Part shown: in pieces, positions 44,117 to 55,455 of the stretch
Layout of the letters: every line of letters begins with the position of its first letter
How positions within the stretch are numbered: position 1 is the first letter of the stretch
Made by a program: the position numbers and the translations under genes
Assembly (NCBI RefSeq): GCF_021379005.1
Contig: NZ_CP075171.1
Location: forward strand, 3,844,001-3,908,000
Direction: 5' to 3'
Origin: Leptodesmis sichuanensis A121
GTDB lineage: Bacteria; Cyanobacteriota; Cyanobacteriia; Leptolyngbyales; Leptolyngbyaceae
Length of the DNA: 64,000 nt
The notes under the pieces: model-generated
What the model was told of the DNA's origin: nothing
Seen by the model: the letters and a program-made list of their open reading frames with translations, nothing else
Database searches by the model: none

Positions 44117-44864
44117 TCATGCCTCCTTGCCTTCGATGATGCGGATGGTAGGAATGGTGTCAAGCAAAAAGAGATGACGGCGCAGGGGATGATCGGTGGC
44201 GTAGAGGCGTTGGAAGATGGCCCGCAGGGCAGCGAGTTTGTCGCCTGGGATGTCGTCGATCGCGGGGAGAGCTTCGGCTTGCAGGAGGGGAGCGAAGCTG
44301 AGGTTGTGGGCGTGGAGGTCTGCGGGCAGGTAGAGTTCGTAGACGAGGGCGTTGATCAGTTGCTCAAAATAGTCGAGCATGAGTTTATCGCTGGGGTCGT
44401 GAAGGCTCTGGGTGGTGAGGTGGAGGATGTAGGAGACAAGGGTTTCAATGGTGCCTTTGTCGCGCTCTGAGGCTGGGGGAATGGAGATTTGTGTCACATA
44501 CATTGGCTTGAATTCATAAAAACCACCCTGTTTAGAAGCAGCAGTTTGTTGAATAAACCACCACATAACCTTGGAGTTGAGAATTCCTAGAATGAATTCA
44601 ACCTCATCGGTAACACAAATATTTGTTTTATCGTTGCCGTAATATCCAGAATAATCAGCGGCGTAATCGGCTGATTGGGCGATCGCTGGAATAAAAATCT
44701 TCGATCGCTCAAACTCCTGCCAGTAGATACAAGACCGCAGTTCCCAGAAAAACTTGCCTTGATCGTACCGTTTAATCAGGGCTTCTCTGAATTGAGAAAA
44801 GTGGTGATGAATGGCTGGATAGGTTTGAGCAAAAATTTGTTCGGCTTTTGGCTCAGGTTTACCT
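44117..44864 (-). pseudogene. Eco57I-type methyltransferase, C-terminal part after IS1634
   Basis: This is the target-recognition and tail region of the methyltransferase that begins at 51470. It opens TGKPEPKAEQIFAQTYPAIH and continues REALIKRYDQGKFFWELRSC and YWQEFERSKIFIPAIAQSAD. The segment GILNSKVMWWFIQQTAASKQ is typical of the TaqI-like specificity domain. It cannot be translated as part of the enzyme, because IS1634 and IS982 (44871-47656) separate it from the catalytic part. A short frame entering from the IS1634 end exists but is an artefact of the junction. Confidence 0.88.
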
Positions 44865-44870
44865 GTCCAA

Positions 44871-46617
44871 CTCACATTCCGCACTTCCAACTGGCACAAT
44901 AGGATTAAGATTGTCCTCAACAAAGTAAGTAATACCGCCGACAGGCAGAACCGAAAAATTGGAGAATATGGCGGCGATCGTCAGTGAGATTGACCACTTG
45001 CTGAACCCCATTGAGCACGACATAATGCACTGCCATAAAACACTGAAAGACCCAACGTAGGGTCGGGCGTTGAGTGCCTTTGCCAAGCTGGTTGGGCAAG
45101 GTTTGGTTGGCCTGCTGAAGTGCTTGACGGAGTTGGCGTTGGCCCAAGTTGTACACGAGCAAGCACAAGCCCATGATCATAGCAAGTGCCATGATCCGTT
45201 CTGGGGATTTGAGGAAGACACTGGAAGCAAAGAACAGAGGGTCTTTGAGAAACCGAAAGCCCCGCTCATTCCCTTGTTGCCCTTTGTATTCCTCCAGCGC
45301 CTGTTGCGCGCTTAATTGCTCAGACTCGAGAACATTGGTTGCCAGAATGAAGCGCCCAGCCCGTTGCTGATGTCTGGCCACAACCGTAGTATTCAAAGTT
45401 AACGAGGCTTGAGGGTGATAGGTAATGCGACTGGGAGGATGACCCCGTTTGGGCTTACCCGGTTTGTCATAGTGCACCGTTTGCTTCACACCCATTCCAT
45501 CCAGTTGATGCCACGGTAGCTTCTGTCCAAATTTTTCGAGTGCGGCTATCGCATCAGCTTCGCAAGCAAATTCTTGAGCGCATAATTGTCGTAATTGCGA
45601 TTGCCAATGGGCGGTTGCCTGGGTCAAGGTTTTATCTAACTTCTTGAGGTCAGCCTGTTTGCGTTTCTGGCTTTCGACCACCAACCATCGCTGTTGGACA
45701 CCGCCATAGTCGCAGCAGACAGTCGCAATCCGATACCCTTCCAGCTCCGTAGTCTCGAACGCAGCGTCTGCCAACTGGCTGATTAACTCCGATGCTGCAT
45801 TCAGCGTCAACGGCACTCGGGTCAGCCATCGCAACCCGGACACCTGTTGCAAGTTTTGCTCACTGTAGAGGGCAGCATCCGCCACATACAACCCCTCAAA
45901 GTTCCACTGCGACTTAAACTCCTGCATCAAGTCAGCAAAGCGGGTTTTATCGGACTGATTACCGTCGGCTAACTCAATGAACGCGGGAATCTCTCCATCC
46001 CCCCAACACACCAAATTCATCACAAACTGCTTCAGGTCAGGACGACGGTCCCGCGAATAGCCATAGGTGATGTGAATCGGAACAGGGGCAACGCCCTCAG
46101 TCACCTGGGACTCCGGCAAATACTCGCCCTCCACCGAAAGTGAAGTCGAGTCGAAATGGGCGCTCTTGCACACGACTCCAAATTTGCGGGCCGCCGTCAG
46201 GCAAATGGCCATAAATATTGGGCTTAGTCCGCCCAAGTACAGGGCGTCGAGGACTCGTCCTAACCGGTCGTCATTGAGATGCGCCGCCAGTACTCCTGCG
46301 CCCAGCAAATGTTCCGTTGCTTTCCCCACAAAGAATTGTTCAAACAGGTACAACGGCGCAGATACCAGCCCTAATCCATTCAGAATCATGGCTTTTACCG
46401 CCACCCCTGGGCTAATTTGCTCTCGCGGGTCTTCTCCCAAATGTTGGTTGATCTGCTCCACAATCTTTAACTCGTCTACCAATCCGGCCACGATGCCCAG
46501 ATGATCCAGGTTCTGCACAATCAATTCGCCGTTCAACAGCACCCCCTCCGCTGTCAGCCTTTTAGAAAATTATGCGACTAAATTCCCGATGTGACACTTC
46601 AAAGGGCGGAATGTCGG
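44871..46617 (-). mobile_element. IS1634-family insertion sequence with 6-base duplication
   Basis: It is flanked by GTCCAA at 44865-44870 and 46618-46623. The inverted ends are CTCACATTCCGC and CCGACATTCCGC (read inward), with further matches ending in CAC. The length is 1747 bases, one transposase gene. It sits in the methyltransferase reading frame. Confidence 0.92.
44917..46542 (-). CDS. IS1634-family transposase (DUF4277 N-terminus)
   Basis: The 541-residue protein starts, after a GTG preceded by GGAGGGG, with the DUF4277 region (VQNLDHLGIVAGLVDELKIV). DDE elements follow: SAHFDSTSLSVEGEY, EGLYVADAALYSEQNL and the final Glu in the segment ALEEYKGQQGNERGFRFLKD. The C-terminal half, with ERIMALAMIMGLCLLVYNLG, is also typical. 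The frame is complete, so the element may be mobile. Confidence 0.92.
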   Translation of the reverse strand: MLLNGELIVQNLDHLGIVAGLVDELKIVEQINQHLGEDPREQISPGVAVKAMILNGLGLVSAPLYLFEQFFVGKATEHLLGAGVLAAHLNDDRLGRVLDALYLGGLSPIFMAICLTAARKFGVVCKSAHFDSTSLSVEGEYLPESQVTEGVAPVPIHITYGYSRDRRPDLKQFVMNLVCWGDGEIPAFIELADGNQSDKTRFADLMQEFKSQWNFEGLYVADAALYSEQNLQQVSGLRWLTRVPLTLNAASELISQLADAAFETTELEGYRIATVCCDYGGVQQRWLVVESQKRKQADLKKLDKTLTQATAHWQSQLRQLCAQEFACEADAIAALEKFGQKLPWHQLDGMGVKQTVHYDKPGKPKRGHPPSRITYHPQASLTLNTTVVARHQQRAGRFILATNVLESEQLSAQQALEEYKGQQGNERGFRFLKDPLFFASSVFLKSPERIMALAMIMGLCLLVYNLGQRQLRQALQQANQTLPNQLGKGTQRPTLRWVFQCFMAVHYVVLNGVQQVVNLTDDRRHILQFFGSACRRYYLLC

Positions 46618-46663: not shown

Positions 46664-47656
46664 ACGCGATGTGCGACTAAAACTACTGTGACACAAGCTG
46701 GTCGAACTGCAAGGGGTCAGCACTGTGACGGTTGAGCCATCGACAAACGGTATGAGCTAGAAGCTTGCGATTGATGCGACTGGTCAAATGCCATAAATCT
46801 CGTGCCCAGACCTTCTCAATTGAGAAGCGTTCGACTAATTGCCCAATCACCGTTTCAATCAGTCGTCTAATTCGTTGGAGTAACGCCACCCAAGCAGGCT
46901 CACGAGTATCCTGCATATTGGAGCGCAGGGCAGTTTCTAGTTCAATCCCCACAGCTCGAAGCTCTTGCTGGAGAGCGGCAGAGAGGTAACCTTTGTCGCC
47001 AATGAGCCAACCATGAATCGTCTGCACCATGTCCCACAATGCCTCGCGTTCACTGCCATTGGCTGGGGTGAGGCTAAACCCTGTAATCACCCCTGTTGCA
47101 CTGATGAGCAAATGACCATGAAAGCCATAATAGAACTGCTTTTTAGCCGCGCAGTAACCGTAAGCAGCAATCCCCTTGAAACTGCGACACTCCGGGGCAC
47201 GACTAAACCCACACAACGGGATAGGAATGCCATCGACCAGATGCACCTCATCAGCAAAAGCCCCTAACTCAGTGGACAGGTGCTGCTGGAGTCGTTGCTT
47301 GTACTGCCAGAGGTTTGCAGCCTGACGGACAAAGGCAGAACGACTGCCCAAGCCAGGAAACCACTCCAACCAGTGCCGACGGAAATAGCGCCAAATTGCC
47401 TGGTCTGTATCAATCCCTTGGTACTCTGCCACAATTTCCATCGTCATTACCTCACTGTCGGACAAGGCAGGGGCAAATCCTTTGGCTCGGATGGGTTGCC
47501 CTTGAGTGATTGCCTTCAGCAAATCGTCCACACAGCAAAAAACTGCAATGATAAACTCTTCGATAGTAAACATAAGTCCCACTCGCGCTAGATAGGTTGT
47601 ACTTCTAGCATCGTTCAGTGGGGCTTTCCTTTGCCAAACTTAGTTGCACATCGCGT
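46664..47656 (-). mobile_element. IS982-family insertion sequence with 6-base duplication
   Basis: The duplicated target TTAGAT lies at 46658-46663 and 47657-47662. The inverted ends are ACGCGATGTGCGACTAA at the left, with one mismatch at the right. The length is 993 bases, as expected for IS982. Confidence 0.92.
46683..47573 (-). CDS. IS982-family transposase
   Basis: About 296 residues beginning MFTIEEFIIAVFCCVDDLLK. DDE blocks are HLVDGIPIPLCGFSRA, the HGHLLISATGVITGFSLTPA segment, WLIGDKGYLSAALQQEL and IRRLIETVIGQLVERFSIEK with the last Glu. The length and order match IS982. Three upstream codons are open (GTG at 47582), but the ATG is favoured. The frame is intact. Confidence 0.92.
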   Translation of the reverse strand: MFTIEEFIIAVFCCVDDLLKAITQGQPIRAKGFAPALSDSEVMTMEIVAEYQGIDTDQAIWRYFRRHWLEWFPGLGSRSAFVRQAANLWQYKQRLQQHLSTELGAFADEVHLVDGIPIPLCGFSRAPECRSFKGIAAYGYCAAKKQFYYGFHGHLLISATGVITGFSLTPANGSEREALWDMVQTIHGWLIGDKGYLSAALQQELRAVGIELETALRSNMQDTREPAWVALLQRIRRLIETVIGQLVERFSIEKVWARDLWHLTSRINRKLLAHTVCRWLNRHSADPLQFDQLVSQ

Positions 47657-48017
47657 TTAGATATAAGTCAGCATAGTCAATCACCCACCGTTTTACATCG
47701 CGTCCGCGCAGGAAGGGTTTGAGGACTTCAGCAGAGGAGGAGTGTTCGGCAATCAGTCGGTCGCGGGTAGCTCTATCCACCACAAATGCTTCATTCAAGC
47801 CTGTTTTAATTCCGTAGTAAAACCGACCGTTGACATATTTCCCCAAGGGGGTGCCTGCCTGGCGCAGTTTTTCCAGCAATCGTAGGCTGGTGCGATCGGC
47901 AAACTGCCAGCCCTCGGCTTTGAGTTCGGCCTGGGGCATCCCAAAGCTTTGGGTTTGTACCACCGTTTCAAATTGCTCTAACGGTTGCCCCATTTCCCAG
48001 TTCAGGGCACGGAAGAG

Positions 48018-48105
48018 GCCCTCATCCCCCCGGCCCCCTTCTCCCTGGGGAGAAGGGGGAGTTCCGGTTCCCCTCTCCCTAGGGAGAGGGGCTAGGGGTG
48101 AGGGT
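48018..48105. repeat. GGGGAGAGGG-type palindromic insertion 3 in the methyltransferase
   Basis: The plus strand has CCCTCATCC near the left edge and GGGTGAGGGT at the right, with CTTCTCCCTGGGGAGAAG and CTCTCCCTAGGGAGAG hairpins inside. It is translated in frame as PLAPLPRERGTGTPPSPQGE. It separates the conserved TIVVIEKGR from FRALNWEMGQ. Confidence 0.82.
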
Positions 48106-49264
48106 CTTCCCTTCTCAATCACCACGATCGTCGGATAAGCAATAGCTGTAAACACCGGGGCATCACCAAAATCAATAATCTGATGAATCCGAGTTTGGCT
48201 GGTTAAGAATTGCCGTAGTTTTTGACCATAGGCGGCCCGAAAATACTTATTCGAGGAAATGAAGGTGAGAACGCCCTGCTCTCGCAGTAGCTTCAGTCCT
48301 CGTTCGTAGAAATAGACATACAGATCGGCGGTGCCTGTAAAACACTCATACTGGGATTTGAACTGTTCCTTCAGGTGTTTAATTTGCTCCTGACGCACAT
48401 AGGGCGGGTTGCCAATGCACACATCAAACCTATCCTTGATGCCAAACATCCACTCCGGGTCAAAGAAACCTGCTGACGCATTTTGGTCGTAGGGATTCCA
48501 TTGGGCCAGTTGGGTCGCGGTATGATCTGCCCAGCCTTCCCGCTTCAGCAATACGGCAATTTCATCCCGCAGTTGTTTGTCTTTTTCACGGTACTTGTTC
48601 TTGGTCGCCTGGGTTCGCGCCGTAAAAATCCGGTGGCGCACCTCTGCCAATTCCTGTTCTTTTTCCTGCACCGCCAAGGCTCCCAGGGTCATCTGGGCAG
48701 GGCGGTCAATACTCATCAGTGTATTGGCGGCAATAAACTTGGTTTCCAGGTTTGGCAGGGGCAAAATGCCGCGATTAGGAGCCGTGTCATCCACCCGTTG
48801 TTCCACAATTAGCGAAATAAAGAACCGCAGCTTGGCAATCTGCACGGCAATGGGTTGAATGTCTACCCCATAGATACTGTTTTCGATCAAAAACAACTTA
48901 CGGGGATAGTCCATTTCGTTATCGGCAAAATCGGCTTCGATCTCTGCCAGCCGTTCTTCCAGTTGCTTAACTGCTGCTTCCCGTGCCTGCTCATAGCTAA
49001 TTTTTTGGGCCTGTTGCAGGTCTTCTAGCACCGGGCGAATTTCCCGTTCTTTTTGTTGATGCTTCCAAAACTCATTGTTGGGATCCAGCTTGCCCAAAAT
49101 AAACACCAGCTTCTGCAACATCCCCATCGGGAACGCCCCGGAACCCACCGCCGGGTCCAGCACTTTCAGGGAGTCGATCGCGGCGATCAGCAACACCGTA
49201 TTTTCCGGATCATCGGCAAAGGGATTATCTGGGGTTTTGTAGTCGAGCAGTTGGCGGAGTTTTT

Positions 49265-49824
49265 CCCTCACCCTAAATCCCTCTCCCTGGGGAGAGGGAC
49301 TTTGATTCCAACTGCCTTCTTCCTGGGGAGAAGGGCTGGGGATGAGGGCAGACAAAATTATCTGTAATGCAGTTTCTAATTGCTCGAAGATTTGTTCATT
49401 TCGTAGACGAAGAACAGTTAACCCTTGAGATTGCATCCAGCTATCCCGATCCGCATCGCGTTCAGTTTGGGTTTCATGAATGCCGCCATCTAGTTCAATG
49501 ACCAGTTTCGCACCATGACAATAAAAATCAGTGATGTATTGCCCAATGTTGTGCTGCCGTCTGAATTTGAAATTGTGCAGGCGGCGATCGCGCAAACATT
49601 CCCATAAAATCTCTTCCGCAGGGGTTTGTTTAGACCTCAGTTCACGGGCGCGTTCTAGGAGTGCGCGGGGAATTTCGCGGAGTTTGCCGCTGATAGGATC
49701 ACCCTCATCCCCCCGACCCCCTGCTTCGCACGTCCTTCGGCCTACTCCCCAGGGAGAAGGGAGAGTAAGAGTAGGAGAGGTTCCGGCTCCCCTCTCCCCA
49801 GGGAGAGGGGCTGGGGGTGAGGGC
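49265..49824 (-). mobile_element. Palindrome-flanked DUF559 endonuclease module inside the methyltransferase
   Basis: The 560-base block is bounded by the same CCCTCACC/GGTGAGGG palindromic repeats at both sides (49265-49350 and about 49700-49824). The DUF559 domain (49350-49695) reads SKQTPAEEILWECLRDRRLH, then KFRRQHNIGQYITDFYCHGA, KLVIELDGGIHETQTERDAD and GLTVLRLRNEQIFEQLETAL. Its PD-(D/E)XK residues (Asp in YITDFYC, Glu and Asp in VIELDG) are intact. The block is in frame throughout and interrupts conserved methyltransferase sequence between the stretch before NALLPS and KLRQLLDYKTPDNPF. The mobility claim is inference from architecture. Confidence 0.75.
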
Positions 49825-50544
49825 AAAAGGGCATTTTCCAAGTACACTAACAGGCTCTCATCCACCATGTAGTCCACCACTTCGCGGGGGGTGTAGAAAG
49901 ACCCCGTTTGCTTCCGCGCCGTCACCTTCGTTTCGGGGTTGTAGGCTGCCAGCAGGTTTTCAAACACCTTGCCCAGCAATTCTGGATCGAGGGCAATCTC
50001 TTCTTCTAGAGGTGTATTTTCGGTAATGGTGAATTTGTAGCGGCTGAAAATGTTGATCAATCCCCGCACCTTAAAGCGTTTCTTCTTGGTGCCATAGACC
50101 TCGTTAAGGTCAATCTCCTGCTCATCTGAGAAAAAGAGATAGTTCGGCACCGAGAGAGGGTTATCCGCCCGGTCAGAAAAACCATCAATTCGCAGCGTTT
50201 GCTTAGGATTTTGCGGGTCAGGCTGGTCTAAACACTCAAATAAGCCCCCGTTGAGGAAGGGGACTTGCTCAAATAGCTGGAGTGCCTGTTCCGGTTGCCT
50301 GAACAAATCGCGGTAACGATAGACGTTATGTACCATGAAGTGCTGATCGCGGCTACCCGGTTTTGCCTTACCGCGAAACTTGCGGTTGTCCGGCTGCTCC
50401 GGTGTGTTCATCTCCTGGTTGAGGGTGGCAAAAAACAGATTTTGCAGAATCGCTTTGTAGTAGGTACTGGCGGTGGGATCGTCCAGGTCAATCAATTCTT
50501 TCAGGTGGGGTAGCTGGAACAGTTCGTCAGGAACGAGGGAATTT

Positions 50545-50630
50545 GCCCTCACCCTAAATCCCTCTCCCTGGGGAGAGGGACTTTGATTCCGGCTCCCTTC
50601 TCCCTGGGGAGAAGGGTTGGGGATGAGGGC
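50545..50630. repeat. GGGGAGAGGG-type palindromic insertion 1 in the methyltransferase
   Basis: Two hairpins (CTCTCCCTGGGGAGAG and CTTCTCCCTGGGGAGAAG) lie between CCCTCACC and GGATGAGGGC. It is translated in frame as IPNPSPQGEGSRNQSPSPQG. It splits the conserved FVWFLKEKR from LVPDELFQL. Confidence 0.85.
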
Positions 50631-51466
50631 GGGTCGTTTTTCTTTCAAGAACCAAACAAAAATCAACCGAGTAATCAACCGAATCAAGCTCACCGAATCC
50701 AGTCCCTCTTCATCTTTGGGCGCATCATCCGGGAAGCGCACCTGTTGCCGTGCCCAAAAATACCAGTCGGAAATTTCCTGAAAAAATCGCTTATTCAGTT
50801 CGGTGCTGTCGAGGGTCTTTTGCCAGGCCCGGTGCAGTTCCACAAAGTTACTGAACTTGTGGGTTTTGTATAGTTGCTCTAGAGACAGGTCAAACAGGAT
50901 CTCGACATGGGCGCGGTGGGGATTAGCGCAATCAATATCTTTAATGAGTGTTACTTTTTCTAAAACATCCTTCGACTCATCCCGCTTGTGGAGGCGACGA
51001 TTGATAATTGAGAGTGTGAGGGTTTGCCCATGCTTAAACACCAGCATCACGGGCATGGGAAACAGTTTGTTGATTTCGCGGGTGATGCTGGCTAGCTGGC
51101 TGCGGGAGTAAGTGTTACCTGCTAGTTCGATCGCAAAAAACAGATAAGACTCAATAATACTGTTGTCGATTCGAGGTGAACCGCCAAAGTTGAGCCGGAT
51201 TTGTTCTGATCCGGTAATTTCATCTTTAGTCAGTTGGAACATCAGATCGACAAACTGCCACTCTTCTGACCTGGCTGTCTTAGGGTTAAATACTTTGCCC
51301 TGGTCAAATTGGCTGCGGAAGGCATCCACCGTCGGAGAGTCCAGGCGGATCGCTTTATCGGTTTGATAGCCTAAAGTTTGGAATAAACTTTGGGCATGGT
51401 CAGCCAGATTGCCAGTTGAGAAATGGTTGAGCGATCGGGCAATGTCTTGTTTGAGTTTGAGGTCAC

Positions 51467-52132
51467 TCATTGAGTCCTCCCATTGTCTGACCTGTCCAAG
51501 CTGAGCGAAACCAGATACTTCAGAACCTGGGCGACTCGGAGTAAATTGCTATCGGCATCGGAGAGTAAGGTAAAGTTATGGGACAAGGCAAATTCGCTTC
51601 CCTCTAACTTGACAAACAGATAGTCATAGCCATTCGTGACTAATCCAAACATAGGACGACTGGGGTGAGGAGTCGCCGCCATGTAGGCGATCGCCTGGGG
51701 AACAGCTCGCAGCACACTAAACCCACCACGCTTCCCCTCAATCACCACTAACCAAAAATCATCCTGTAACGTCAGCGCATCAATCCGCCCCTCTAAGGTG
51801 ATTCTTCCTTCTTCAGTATCTACCTGGGTCTGAACCTCAACCCACGTTTCTCCCCGAATCCGGTAAGGAGGATCGCACAGTCCTAAGGCATCCAGCAGGG
51901 GTGAAAGTAAAATAATGTTCAGTGTCCCCTCGCTCACTTCACCCTCTTCTAAATAGGCAAGATACCGTTGGGCTAAACGATTCAAAGCCAGTATTTCTTG
52001 ATCCGTGGGTGGTGGCAAAGGGTTTCTCCACTCAGGGAAAAATTCAGGGTTATCGGTGCGGTGTAGACCGAGTTTGTCTTGAATATCCCGAAAATTAAGA
52101 ATGGCTTTGGTAATCGCAGTGACTGGAACCAT
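51467..52132 (-). CDS. HsdR_N-like PD-(D/E)XK restriction endonuclease subunit
   Basis: The 221-residue protein resembles the N-terminal nuclease domain of type I restriction R subunits without the motor. The catalytic strand pair is ITLEGRIDALTLQDDFWLVV followed by IEGKRGGFSVL, giving the D...ExK pattern. The later AVPQAIAYMAATPHPSRPMF and FGLVTNGYDYLFVKLEG fit the family. It starts two bases after the helicase stop, using a GGGAGG site within the helicase end, and its stop overlaps the methyltransferase start by four bases. It probably works with the helicase as the DNA-cutting part of the defence operon. Confidence 0.85.
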   Translation of the reverse strand: MVPVTAITKAILNFRDIQDKLGLHRTDNPEFFPEWRNPLPPPTDQEILALNRLAQRYLAYLEEGEVSEGTLNIILLSPLLDALGLCDPPYRIRGETWVEVQTQVDTEEGRITLEGRIDALTLQDDFWLVVIEGKRGGFSVLRAVPQAIAYMAATPHPSRPMFGLVTNGYDYLFVKLEGSEFALSHNFTLLSDADSNLLRVAQVLKYLVSLSLDRSDNGRTQ

Positions 52133-52134
52133 TG

Positions 52135-55100
52135 TTAACCATCCTCCCGGCTCTTAATCACTAACCAGGTAATCAAGTCAAATTCGGTGGTGTCGGTGAC
52201 TTGCTGCTGTTGATCCACCAGGACAGCACTGCGGCTGGTTTGCAGTTGAGAGAGCGATCGCCGTCTGAAGGTACTGGCAATTGAGCTAACCGCCGCTTCG
52301 AGCAAACCATTGTACTGCGACATATCGGTGCCGTTACTCGTTTCTTGATCAAACAGATTGCAAAGTTCCTCGTAGGGAGTGGTGCGATCGGCACAGAGCA
52401 GGCGATAGATTTCTAAAATTTGCTTGGGTTGGGCAAAGCTATAGCGAACAACGCGATCGTCTCGCACATAGACCAGGAAATAGGGTTGTAAAGGATTCAC
52501 GGTATTTTGATGGGCTGCGGTTTTTTGGCGCAGACAGAAGATCACGCCTGGGGTAATGGTGGCATAGTCTGGATGGGTGGGCACCAGAGCATATAAGCCC
52601 AAGGGCGCATCAGCCAGCAATTTGCGGTTGCTTTCGATATACTTGCTCAGTTCAATCCGAAAGTCATCCAGGGTAAAGTCTGTGAGGGAAATACTTTCGG
52701 TAAAATCTTCCAGATCCAGCACTTCATCTCGCAATCGCAACAGTTGTTTATCTCGGTATTTCAAATCATCCTGAATCATGTCTTCCATGTTGGCCAGCAG
52801 GTTATCTTCCTGGGTTGCCGTAATGTCTACCAAGGCCATCCGTGCCTCGACTCGATTCTTCAGGTTGATATATTGATTCAAATCTTCTGTGGGCCAGAAG
52901 TTCACCATCTGCACCGATGCATTGATGCTGCCAATTCGATCAATGCGACCAAACCGCTGAATCAACCGCACCGGATTCCAGTGAATGTCATAGTTCACCA
53001 GATAATCGCAATCTTGCAGGTTTTGTCCCTCCGAAATACAGTCTGTGGCAATGAGCAAATCAATCTCACCCGCTTGAGGCATGGAAGTGATATGGGAACG
53101 CTTCTTTGAGATGGGGGAGAAATTGGTGAGAATCTGGTTAAACTCGGTCTTGCCAAAGGTCGTTTTGTTGCGGGATGAGTCTCCAGTCACCAAGGCAAGA
53201 TCAATGTTTAATTCAGTTTTTGCCCAATCTTTTAACGATTCATAGAGATAGGTCGCCGTATCCGCAAAGGCAGTAAAGACTAATACTTTTCGGTTGGGTT
53301 GCGATTGCTTATTCGTGGTCGGTTGCTTAGCTTTTTGCAAAATTAACTGCTTTAATCTAGCCAATTTCGCATCCCGCTCGACAGTAATCGCTGCGGCGGA
53401 GTTATACAATCCCAGCAGTTGGTCTTTATCGCGATCGAGGTCTTTCAGCCACGATTCTACATCCAGGTGCGCCATCTGATACACTAGCTTTTGCCCGACC
53501 TGCATCGCATCCCGGAGTTCTTCATCGTCTAATTCTTCGACTGTGGGTGATGCGACTTCTACTTCTGAAGATTGGTTTTGGAGGGTCTGAAATTGCTTGA
53601 TGCGGGTTTGCAATTCCTCAATTTTTTGGATGGTGTTATCCATCGTGATGGCAAAGGCCGATACCGAACTCTCCAATCGTTTGAGAAAATTGACCTTCAT
53701 CATGCCAATCAGGAAATGTTCGCGATCGCCCTGACTAAACACCGACTTGCCCTTGTCGTAGAGATGTTGATACTGGGGCAGCACATACTTGGCTGGGTTA
53801 AATAATGACAGTTGATACTCAGAGATTTCATCGTTGATCTTATCGTAGGATGGAAACCGCCCTTTCAAGTCAATTTCGGGATAAACGGAGATAGGTTTGA
53901 GTCGTTCTGGGAAACCTCCTAACTCTGCGATCGTCGCTTTGTAGTAACGCTGAATGTGCTTTCGAGAACGGGCGATCGTCAGTTCATCTAACAGCTTAAA
54001 AAAGCTAGAACTCAGCTTTTCTAGCAAGTCACTGGTTTTACGTTCCTGGTGTTGCTTAGCCCAGGTGGTAAAGGTTCGCTGCGCCGATGCCAGAGTTTCT
54101 TTCAGGCTGGCAATGCCAACAGACTCACGAAACGCATCATCCCGCCCTTCCGTTAGAAAATAGAGTTGATTACGTAGGTCTTTCAGGTCATTATTGACGG
54201 GGGTTGCCGATAGTAACAATACTTTTGTTTTAATCCCTCGTTTAATAATATCTTCCAGCAATCGCTCATAACGACTCTTGCGAATTATATTACCCTCTTC
54301 ATCTCGGCGACTACCCGTGTTATTCCGAAAGTTGTGAGACTCATCAATCACAACCAAATCATAATTACCCCAGTTGATCGCCTCTAGATTAATATCTCCA
54401 GAAAAACCAGAGTCACGGCTGAGATCTGTATGGGAAAGAACCGTGTAGCTAAATCGATCTTTGACAAACGGATTCAACTCACTATTGTTTTGAGCTTGAT
54501 AGACCGTCCAATTTTCCCGTAGTTTTTTCGGGCAAAGTACGAGTACTCGATAATTCAAAAGTTCAAAATATTTAATCACTGCCAGGGCTTCAAAGGTTTT
54601 ACCTAGCCCTACACTGTCTGCAATAATGCAGCCATTGTGAGTGCGGATTTTATTGATTGCCCCTTTGACACCATCTTTCTGGAACTCAAATAGTGTGTTC
54701 CAAATATCCGTATCAACCAACTGGCTTTTTTCAGTGAGTAACCCGCTGGCATCCTGATCTGCCAGGAATCGTTCAAAAATATGAAATAGGGTTTTGTAAT
54801 AGATAAATTGGGGGGCGTGATTTTGATAAAGTTGCTCCAGGTATTGCAGCACCTCGTCTTTAACATCTTCGACCAGGCTTTCATCCTGCCACAGTTCATC
54901 AAACCAGGCTTTCAAATCCCGACGATCGCGATTACTGTCTACTTCCAGGTTAAGTTCAATATTATTGCCCGACTCACCCAATCCTAACCCACGCACCGTA
55001 AAGTTAGAACTGCCCATAATGGCATCTTCCACGCCATTGTTGGTAATATGATACATTTTGCCGTGCAGCAGATTGGTTTGCTTGACCGATCGTATCTGAA

Positions 55101-55455
55101 CCTTTGCCTGAATCCAATCGGCACACTCCTTCGCTACCCGCTTTTGCTCTAGACGATTCTGCAACTGCAAGCCATCGTCTTCAATCTGGAAGGATTTTTT
55201 ATCCGTTTTGTCAGGGTCAAGCGATCGCACAAAGCGTGGCTCCCCAAACAAGAATTGTAGGTCTTCAATAACAGTCAGTTGAGCTTTGAGCGCCTCAAAT
55301 GCATAGATCGTAAAGTATGCAGAGACGATCGACAGCCTAGAGCCTGATTGGATTTTCTCTTGTAGAAAACTACCAACACTGCCTCGATGATGGTTGTCCC
55401 GAATTCCAGAAGCAGGAAGTGCCTGAGTATGGCTCTTAGTTTTGGCGATCGTCAT
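52135..55455 (-). CDS. PLD-nuclease / SNF2-family helicase
   Basis: The first gene of the operon; 1106 residues. Residues 20-210 form a phospholipase-D-like nuclease fold with LLHGKMYHITNNG (His131, Lys133) and MGSSNFTVRGLGLGESGN (Asn151), the half-site of a dimeric PLD. The motor follows: Walker A CIIADSVGLGKTFEALAV near 285, YDLVVIDESHNFRN near 372, VLLLSATPVNNDLKDLRNQL, then the second RecA domain with VLVFTAFADTATYLYESL and DCISEGQNLQDCDYLVNYDI, ending in RLIQRFGRIDRIGS. The C-terminal 200 residues are variable. This is an RapA/SNF2-like DNA translocase with a nuclease, as in several defence systems. Confidence 0.9.
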   Translation of the reverse strand: MTIAKTKSHTQALPASGIRDNHHRGSVGSFLQEKIQSGSRLSIVSAYFTIYAFEALKAQLTVIEDLQFLFGEPRFVRSLDPDKTDKKSFQIEDDGLQLQNRLEQKRVAKECADWIQAKVQIRSVKQTNLLHGKMYHITNNGVEDAIMGSSNFTVRGLGLGESGNNIELNLEVDSNRDRRDLKAWFDELWQDESLVEDVKDEVLQYLEQLYQNHAPQFIYYKTLFHIFERFLADQDASGLLTEKSQLVDTDIWNTLFEFQKDGVKGAINKIRTHNGCIIADSVGLGKTFEALAVIKYFELLNYRVLVLCPKKLRENWTVYQAQNNSELNPFVKDRFSYTVLSHTDLSRDSGFSGDINLEAINWGNYDLVVIDESHNFRNNTGSRRDEEGNIIRKSRYERLLEDIIKRGIKTKVLLLSATPVNNDLKDLRNQLYFLTEGRDDAFRESVGIASLKETLASAQRTFTTWAKQHQERKTSDLLEKLSSSFFKLLDELTIARSRKHIQRYYKATIAELGGFPERLKPISVYPEIDLKGRFPSYDKINDEISEYQLSLFNPAKYVLPQYQHLYDKGKSVFSQGDREHFLIGMMKVNFLKRLESSVSAFAITMDNTIQKIEELQTRIKQFQTLQNQSSEVEVASPTVEELDDEELRDAMQVGQKLVYQMAHLDVESWLKDLDRDKDQLLGLYNSAAAITVERDAKLARLKQLILQKAKQPTTNKQSQPNRKVLVFTAFADTATYLYESLKDWAKTELNIDLALVTGDSSRNKTTFGKTEFNQILTNFSPISKKRSHITSMPQAGEIDLLIATDCISEGQNLQDCDYLVNYDIHWNPVRLIQRFGRIDRIGSINASVQMVNFWPTEDLNQYINLKNRVEARMALVDITATQEDNLLANMEDMIQDDLKYRDKQLLRLRDEVLDLEDFTESISLTDFTLDDFRIELSKYIESNRKLLADAPLGLYALVPTHPDYATITPGVIFCLRQKTAAHQNTVNPLQPYFLVYVRDDRVVRYSFAQPKQILEIYRLLCADRTTPYEELCNLFDQETSNGTDMSQYNGLLEAAVSSIASTFRRRSLSQLQTSRSAVLVDQQQQVTDTTEFDLITWLVIKSREDG

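Follow-up and report, generated by a model that had tools for sequence, protein, structure and literature searches.

REPINs, dispersed sequences in which two inverted REP palindromes form a hairpin, have been defined together with the REP-associated tyrosine transposases (RAYTs; PMC3116915), and the REP superfamilies carry GTAG or CGTC tags at the repeat end (PMC3733652). The Rickettsia palindromic elements (RPE) sit in frame in protein genes, where they are tolerated as loops (PMC10969869). We analysed a window of 64,000 nucleotides from the cyanobacterium Leptodesmis sichuanensis A121, in which a DUF559 nuclease domain, bracketed by REPIN-like repeats, lies in frame inside a DNA methyltransferase gene. 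With a probability of about 0.6, we propose that DUF559 is the mobility nuclease of a family of REPIN-like elements and that the block in the window is a full-length copy. The preliminary description of this DNA had read the block as a gene-within-gene mobile module with palindromic ends, and the analysis supports that reading.

The host gene, 47640..51470 on the minus strand, encodes an Eco57I-type N6 DNA methyltransferase (type II restriction-modification). Pfam places Eco57I (E 3.8e-42), N6_Mtase and DUF559 domains all in one open frame of 1276 aa, which runs uninterrupted through the nuclease and both bracketing repeats, as had been claimed from the sequence. The 3' end of the gene is broken by two transposase-like ORFs (44917-46542 and 46683-47582), and a C-terminal remainder of the methyltransferase (44117..44923, minus strand) matches the C-terminal part of the intact protein of G060, a genome of the same family. 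As its C-terminal part is separated by the two transposase-like ORFs, the split enzyme has probably lost its activity; the DUF559 block itself is intact. The upstream neighbour in the same operon-like run (52135-55455) encodes a protein of 1106 aa with the helicase-type motifs ADSVGLGKT and DESH, possibly a partner of the host restriction system.

Four REPIN-like double hairpins, named A to D, are carried by the host gene. Each is 84-122 nt long, has CCCTCA..TGAGGG ends and contains one TCTCC and one TTCTCC-type hairpin; they conform to the definition of REPINs given above. Double hairpin B (49265-49348, minus strand, linker PSPSPQEEGSWNQSPSPQGEGFRVRE) lies 3' of the nuclease in the direction of the gene and C (49702-49823, minus strand, linker PSPPAPLPGERGAGTSPTLTLPSPWGVGRRTCEAGGRGDEG) lies 5' of it; C is inverted relative to B and has extra internal sequence. 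The other two, A (48019-48104) and D (50546-50629), both on the minus strand, are in frame and contain no nuclease. B and D point one way and A and C the opposite way, so that two oppositely oriented repeats bracket the DUF559 nuclease. D is 93% identical to B over 89 nt, and its DNA fold has a z of -3.9. The preliminary description had seen CCCTCACC/GGTGAGGG palindromes here; the palindromic nature of the flanks stands, but what it took for single palindromes are double hairpins. When translated, the hairpins give Pro/Gly-rich linkers, for example PSPPAPLPGERG... and SPSPQGEGFRVR. The pattern CTCCCNNGGGAGA has 19 matches in the 5.35-Mb genome, 14 of them inside the host methyltransferase gene, and among the remaining five only L008 resembles, by eye, an incomplete repeat; within the genome of the window, the repeat family of A to D is thus almost restricted to this gene.

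Between B and C, the DUF559 (PF04480) domain occupies residues 605-709 (49344..49658, minus strand, in frame; E 5.4e-36). Its score of 123 bits, against a Pfam cut-off of 20.6, makes it a member of the family. The residues that are invariant in the family, E15, D44 and E55-x-D57-G58-x-x-H61 (domain numbering), are all present, in agreement with the earlier description of a full domain with intact acidic residues between two repeats. The predicted model (pLDDT 86) has a Vsr-like PD-(D/E)XK fold, with a core of helix, three strands, helix and strand. Foldseek returned 3HRL (DUF559-like) first, followed by the homing endonuclease I-Bth0305I (3r3p, E 2.3e-4), the nearest characterised fold, and then by hydroxymethylcytosine-specific enzymes and Vsr; the match to Vsr (1cw0) is weaker than those to 3hrl and 3r3p. 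A profile search agrees with the fold comparison (3R3P, E 0.0022). The resemblance of the predicted fold to I-Bth0305I suggests that the homing-like use of DUF559 nucleases raised in the preliminary description may be correct. DUF559 frames are intact in most copies, the E, D and ExDGxxH residues are conserved across them, and dN/dS values, which lie mostly at 0.07-0.6 and reach 0.9 in one close pair, indicate purifying selection. In a Pfam search of the inserts for intein splicing domains, none was detected, DUF559 being the only domain found.

DUF559 is present in 193 of the 292 genomes of the phylum Cyanobacteriota. The flanks of the best-scoring matches were surveyed at 95 loci. The first set holds 41 loci from Cyanobacteriia, of which 38 come from other genomes, two are further copies from the window's genome and one is the window copy itself. 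The second consists of 29 loci of the f31 family of the same phylum. The third contains 25 loci from a contig profile scan with the window domain as query, mostly from other groups (Acidobacteriota, Chloroflexota, Pseudomonadota, Bacteroidota, Cloacimonadota, Armatimonadota and several candidate phyla) and with a few cyanobacteria. Using a motif for C-rich palindromes that was written after the flanks had been seen, palindromes were found on both sides at 77 of the 95 loci, in Cyanobacteria and about ten other groups (34/41, 25/29 and 18/25 in the three sets), and on at least one side at 91, while four loci have none by this motif. Control windows from the same loci have them on both sides in 12 of 1122 cases (about 1%), and none of 28 Y1 transposase loci from 11 cyanobacterial genomes has C-rich palindromes on both sides. 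The survey counts are not independent, because many loci share ancestry. The association of DUF559 with palindromes elsewhere, which the preliminary description had proposed as a check, is thus general. The bracketing palindromes belong to several C-rich families, and the three well-scoring DUF559 copies of the window's genome each have a different one; a weak fourth match in that genome (L004, 38.7 bits, outside the 95) has no palindrome bracket by eye.

A measure that does not depend on a motif, the best match between the two 250-nt flanks with a score of at least 20, gives a similar picture. Such a match is present at 32 of 40 DUF559 loci versus 10 of 402 neighbouring ORFs (Fisher 1.7e-32), at 26/29 DUF559 loci versus 31/3175 controls in f31 and at 17/25 loci versus 10/500 control windows in the third set; at HNH nucleases it was found in none of 30 cases. 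A strict count of perfect-stem hairpins finds both sides at 21 of 40 DUF559 loci, a low number because many stems are imperfect.

At several loci a single REPIN has the gene between its two hairpins. This is the case in L146, L147, L149, L163 and PriA, which represent several phyla and share the layout CCCTCACCCC-hairpin-nuclease-hairpin-GGGGTGAGGG. As the gene-less version of this arrangement is a REPIN, the nuclease-less REPIN looks like a miniature form of the DUF559 element. In the third family, an element of 601 bp, whose ends were taken from the comparison of several loci, occurs with identical ends at four loci in four genomes; since L064 and L073 share their downstream flank and L073 and L084 are similar just upstream, these amount to at least three different sites. 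A query for empty sites built from the sequences on either side of the L079 copy of this 601-bp element matched only one flank in relatives. In two Deinococcus plasmids, a DUF559 element is found at two places within one operon. No clear target-site duplication was seen at the PriA, methyltransferase and Deinococcus sites, for which close empty alleles are few, and no fixed target was found for the insertions of the DUF559 element.

The repeats match the nucleases they accompany. Repeat similarity was scored between the upstream flank of one locus and the downstream flank of the other only, with orthologous loci removed; this replaced a flank similarity that included coding extensions and was confounded. 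Nuclease similarity and cross-flank repeat similarity correlate with a Spearman coefficient of 0.32 (maximum of 500 permutations, 0.12), and the median flank match is 14 for pairs with a protein similarity below 0.4 and 34-38 for pairs above 0.7. Of 22 comparisons in genomes with multiple nucleases, 19 show the repeat tracking the clade of the nuclease rather than the genome, and the other three are between members of one clade. A 24-nt palindrome of the second family occurs in 17 of 292 genomes (backward control, none), including all ten genomes from which a nuclease of the corresponding clade was surveyed versus 7 of 21 other genomes of that family (p 5e-4). The repeat end of family i, to which A to D belong, is dispersed, with up to 180 exact copies per genome in 47 of 292 genomes (backward control, 0); at the level of genomes, its co-occurrence with any DUF559 is weak (28/69 vs 7/35, p 0.048). 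The family-i repeat is present in 37 copies in G229 and in 35 in G282, two genomes with no Y1 transposase; G282 also has no DUF559 match.

In E. coli, the DUF559 gene is ycjD, located between sapF and fabI. It is adjoined by a dispersed palindrome, GTCCCCTCGCCCC..GGGTGAGGGG, found at a median of 16 places per genome (range 1 to 28), which we take to resemble box C. At high stringency, the 49-nt palindrome beside ycjD occurs once per genome, and it is the neighbouring 43-nt palindrome that is dispersed. In E. coli E57 and O157:H7 ECP19-598 (L303, L304), no ycjD is present beside sapF, which is followed by efflux genes. Two E. coli records listed as plasmids in PLSDB (L300, L301) are probably chromosomes, because they are 4.8-4.9 Mb long and carry sapDF-ycjD-fabI. 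In Sinorhizobium (L293, L297), DUF559 is bracketed by GCCCCTCACCCTAACCCTCTCCCCGC palindromes, presumably similar to the RIME repeats of Rhizobium. In Legionella, segments with DUF559 and transposase have been reported as recombination hot spots (PMC12308824).

The alternative that survives best, although we consider it unlikely, is that DUF559 is a homing-type parasite whose recognition site is the middle of pre-existing REPINs, these being spread by another agent. The location of the gene between two hairpins would be as expected, and insertion sequences are known to use REPs as targets (PMC1525189). Repeats also persist without the nuclease in G282, and the ycjD-linked repeat occurs at 12 places in one O157:H7 record of E. 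coli while another lacks ycjD beside sapF. Nuclease clades and repeat families match closely, which speaks against this view, even if a parasite would be predicted to show it too. There is also no sign of a different mobiliser: G229 and G282 are without a Y1 gene, and the 28 Y1 genes from cyanobacterial genomes are without the palindromes.

One methyltransferase loop exists in several states across genomes. With the joined flanks of the methyltransferase as query, homologs were found in 72 genomes, and the loop that follows FYTPRE(I/V)VxYMVDESLxxYL was compared. The G060 ortholog, 82% identical over the 273-aa query, is without all three inserts of the window gene (A, D and the block of B, nuclease and C). 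No such insert is present in the loop in G060, G153 (one of two copies), G262, G048, G109 and G035; the loop of G255 has the same repeat as the window and no nuclease, and repeat, nuclease and repeat are found in the window, G103 and G064. G284 has a different repeat-derived insert (LRRGENTEKVPLRSGEN...), and G087 has a few residues, AQANNQDDCVT, that resemble the repeats of an insert in the other G153 copy (L124, G153:C63:59500-66500). This last insert contains a RAYT-type Y1 transposase in frame (Y1_Tnp, E 3.6e-8), within an open frame of 1605 aa and with repeats of its own. Common descent of the nuclease insertions in the same loop (window, L055, L062) was not rejected (p-AU 0.24). The preliminary description had stated that this place is free of insertions in methyltransferases of this class; this applies to the six genomes named, but three other genomes have different inserts there and two more have the same kind of nuclease. 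Its suggestion to compare empty and filled sites proved fruitful, as empty, repeat-only, filled and scarred states have all been found.

Taken together, the RAYT in the L124 loop and the DUF559 block in the window loop show that a REP mobiliser and a DUF559 block use the same kind of place. This could be taken to mean that a RAYT/IS200-type transposase moves the palindromic elements and that DUF559 is carried along as passive cargo; in other systems, RAYTs are considered the movers of REPINs (PMC3116915). At L003 (G000:C1:1646858-1650175), moreover, a DUF559 element has a broken RAYT-like frame (MPRPSRNLRPEFCYYVTVRCN...) directly upstream of it. Against such an arrangement, which we regard as improbable, the window's genome has a single intact Y1 gene, which adjoins a different palindrome, GTCCGCGCAGGCGGAC, the 28 Y1 genes surveyed have no C-rich palindromes, and the bracketing of one gene family in about ten phyla would be left unexplained. 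A RAYT is an unlikely mover of these repeats because of that location of the window genome's own Y1 gene and because G229 and G282 have none.

In the DUF559 tree, the window copy belongs to a branch (16 rows, 93/89 support) whose hosts are mostly restriction-modification genes: Eco57I, MmeI, type ISP, DUF1156, HsdR, HsdM and HsdS, a list that leaves out the pseudogene L167. For this branch, recruitment of DUF559 to the methyltransferase as a restriction-endonuclease domain for defence, with the repeats incidental, would be a natural thought. It is a very improbable one, as the insertion point varies (the methyltransferase loop, near the target-recognition domain of MmeI, the C-terminal domain of type ISP enzymes, HsdR, HsdM and HsdS), the repeats bracket the nuclease in these enzymes too, and the window copy lies in a gene broken by transposase ORFs. 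Furthermore, the same arrangement exists outside restriction-modification, the in-frame hosts in f31 being PriA, an IspE-like GHMP kinase and an M14 peptidase. One IspE-like kinase gene (L027:334-2064) contains two tandem DUF559 domains in frame. PriA holds a DUF559 element in many species; in genus g71 it is empty in some genomes, filled in G128, G006, G025 and G283 and scarred in G046. The G046 protein (L232), 96% identical to the filled G128 query, has an in-frame scar of the element ends, CTCTCACCATACCCCTCTGAG, suggesting that the element was lost with the frame kept. Chance or an assembly artefact has a negligible probability given the recurrence in many independent assemblies, including single-contig genomes. 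The single chance fusion that had been named as the alternative in the preliminary description is ruled out, because bracketing recurs and the series of empty, repeat-only, filled and scarred sites exists.

If DUF559 is the mobility nuclease of these elements, the block in the window would be a full-length mobile element, with the nuclease as its sole gene and hairpin-forming palindromes as its ends. Gene-less elements such as A and D, made up of a hairpin, a short linker and a hairpin, would be the miniature, non-autonomous form. The nuclease would probably recognise its cognate palindrome or the insertion target, and probably nick or cut the DNA at the hairpin or at the target; host repair may then copy the element to a new place, by analogy with what has been proposed for homing endonucleases and for RAYT/REPIN. 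In the branch of the window copy, both hairpins are part of the open frame and translate into Pro/Gly-rich flexible linkers, so that the nuclease can sit as an added domain within a host-protein loop. The analysis establishes the anatomy of the element, its wide occurrence, the pairing of nuclease clades with repeats, the presence and absence of the element at the methyltransferase loop and in PriA, and an intact, conserved nuclease; from these, a role of the nuclease in the movement, its target and the insertion chemistry are inferred.

Whether DUF559 is, beyond this, a widespread class of mobile element and the mobiliser that several orphan families of palindromic repeats have been missing, among them the in-frame and the ycjD-linked repeats, we put at even odds. 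The proposed role would assign a likely function to a family of 'unknown function' that is common in one phylum and present in E. coli, and would provide a candidate enzyme for the many hairpin repeats of bacterial genomes for which no mobiliser is known. The entry of repeats in frame into protein genes would also be explained, the hairpins doubling as flexible protein linkers. As ycjD is a DUF559 gene beside a dispersed palindrome, the idea can be put to the test in E. coli K-12. Among open-licence full texts, no publication was found that connects DUF559 with palindromic repeats, and prior art elsewhere is possible.

Among known proteins, E. coli YcjD and structure 3HRL (NGO0050) are DUF559 proteins like the one in the window; to our knowledge, no function has been assigned to either. 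I-Bth0305I, a Vsr-like EDxHD homing endonuclease from a phage intron system, resembles the DUF559 element as a small selfish nuclease gene with the nearest characterised fold, but its system is not known to have hairpin ends or miniature copies. With MITEs, the elements share a non-autonomous miniature beside a full-length form with common ends; as a difference from MITEs, no DDE transposase and no clear target-site duplication were found. With RPEs, for which we know of no enzyme, they share palindromic repeats in frame in protein genes, tolerated as loops; the likeness is one of arrangement, and the DUF559 element differs in having a nuclease gene inside its palindromes. A further parallel is REPIN/RAYT. 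The ends seen here read CCCTCA..TGAGGG, GACCT..AGGTC and CCCCAC.., without GTAG or CGTC tags, and the Y1 genes surveyed, including the one of the window's own genome, are not the cognate neighbours of these repeats that a RAYT system would have. Both systems nevertheless consist of short, many-copy, dispersed double hairpins that are cognate to one adjoining gene, with different families accompanying different genes inside one genome, and both kinds have entered the same methyltransferase loop. They differ in that the DUF559 enzyme is a Vsr-like PD-(D/E)XK nuclease, not an HuH Y1 transposase, and in that its gene is often found between both hairpins and often in frame inside other genes. If our reading is correct, the DUF559 elements would solve the problem of REPIN movement, as RAYTs are thought to do, in a second way and with an unrelated type of enzyme.
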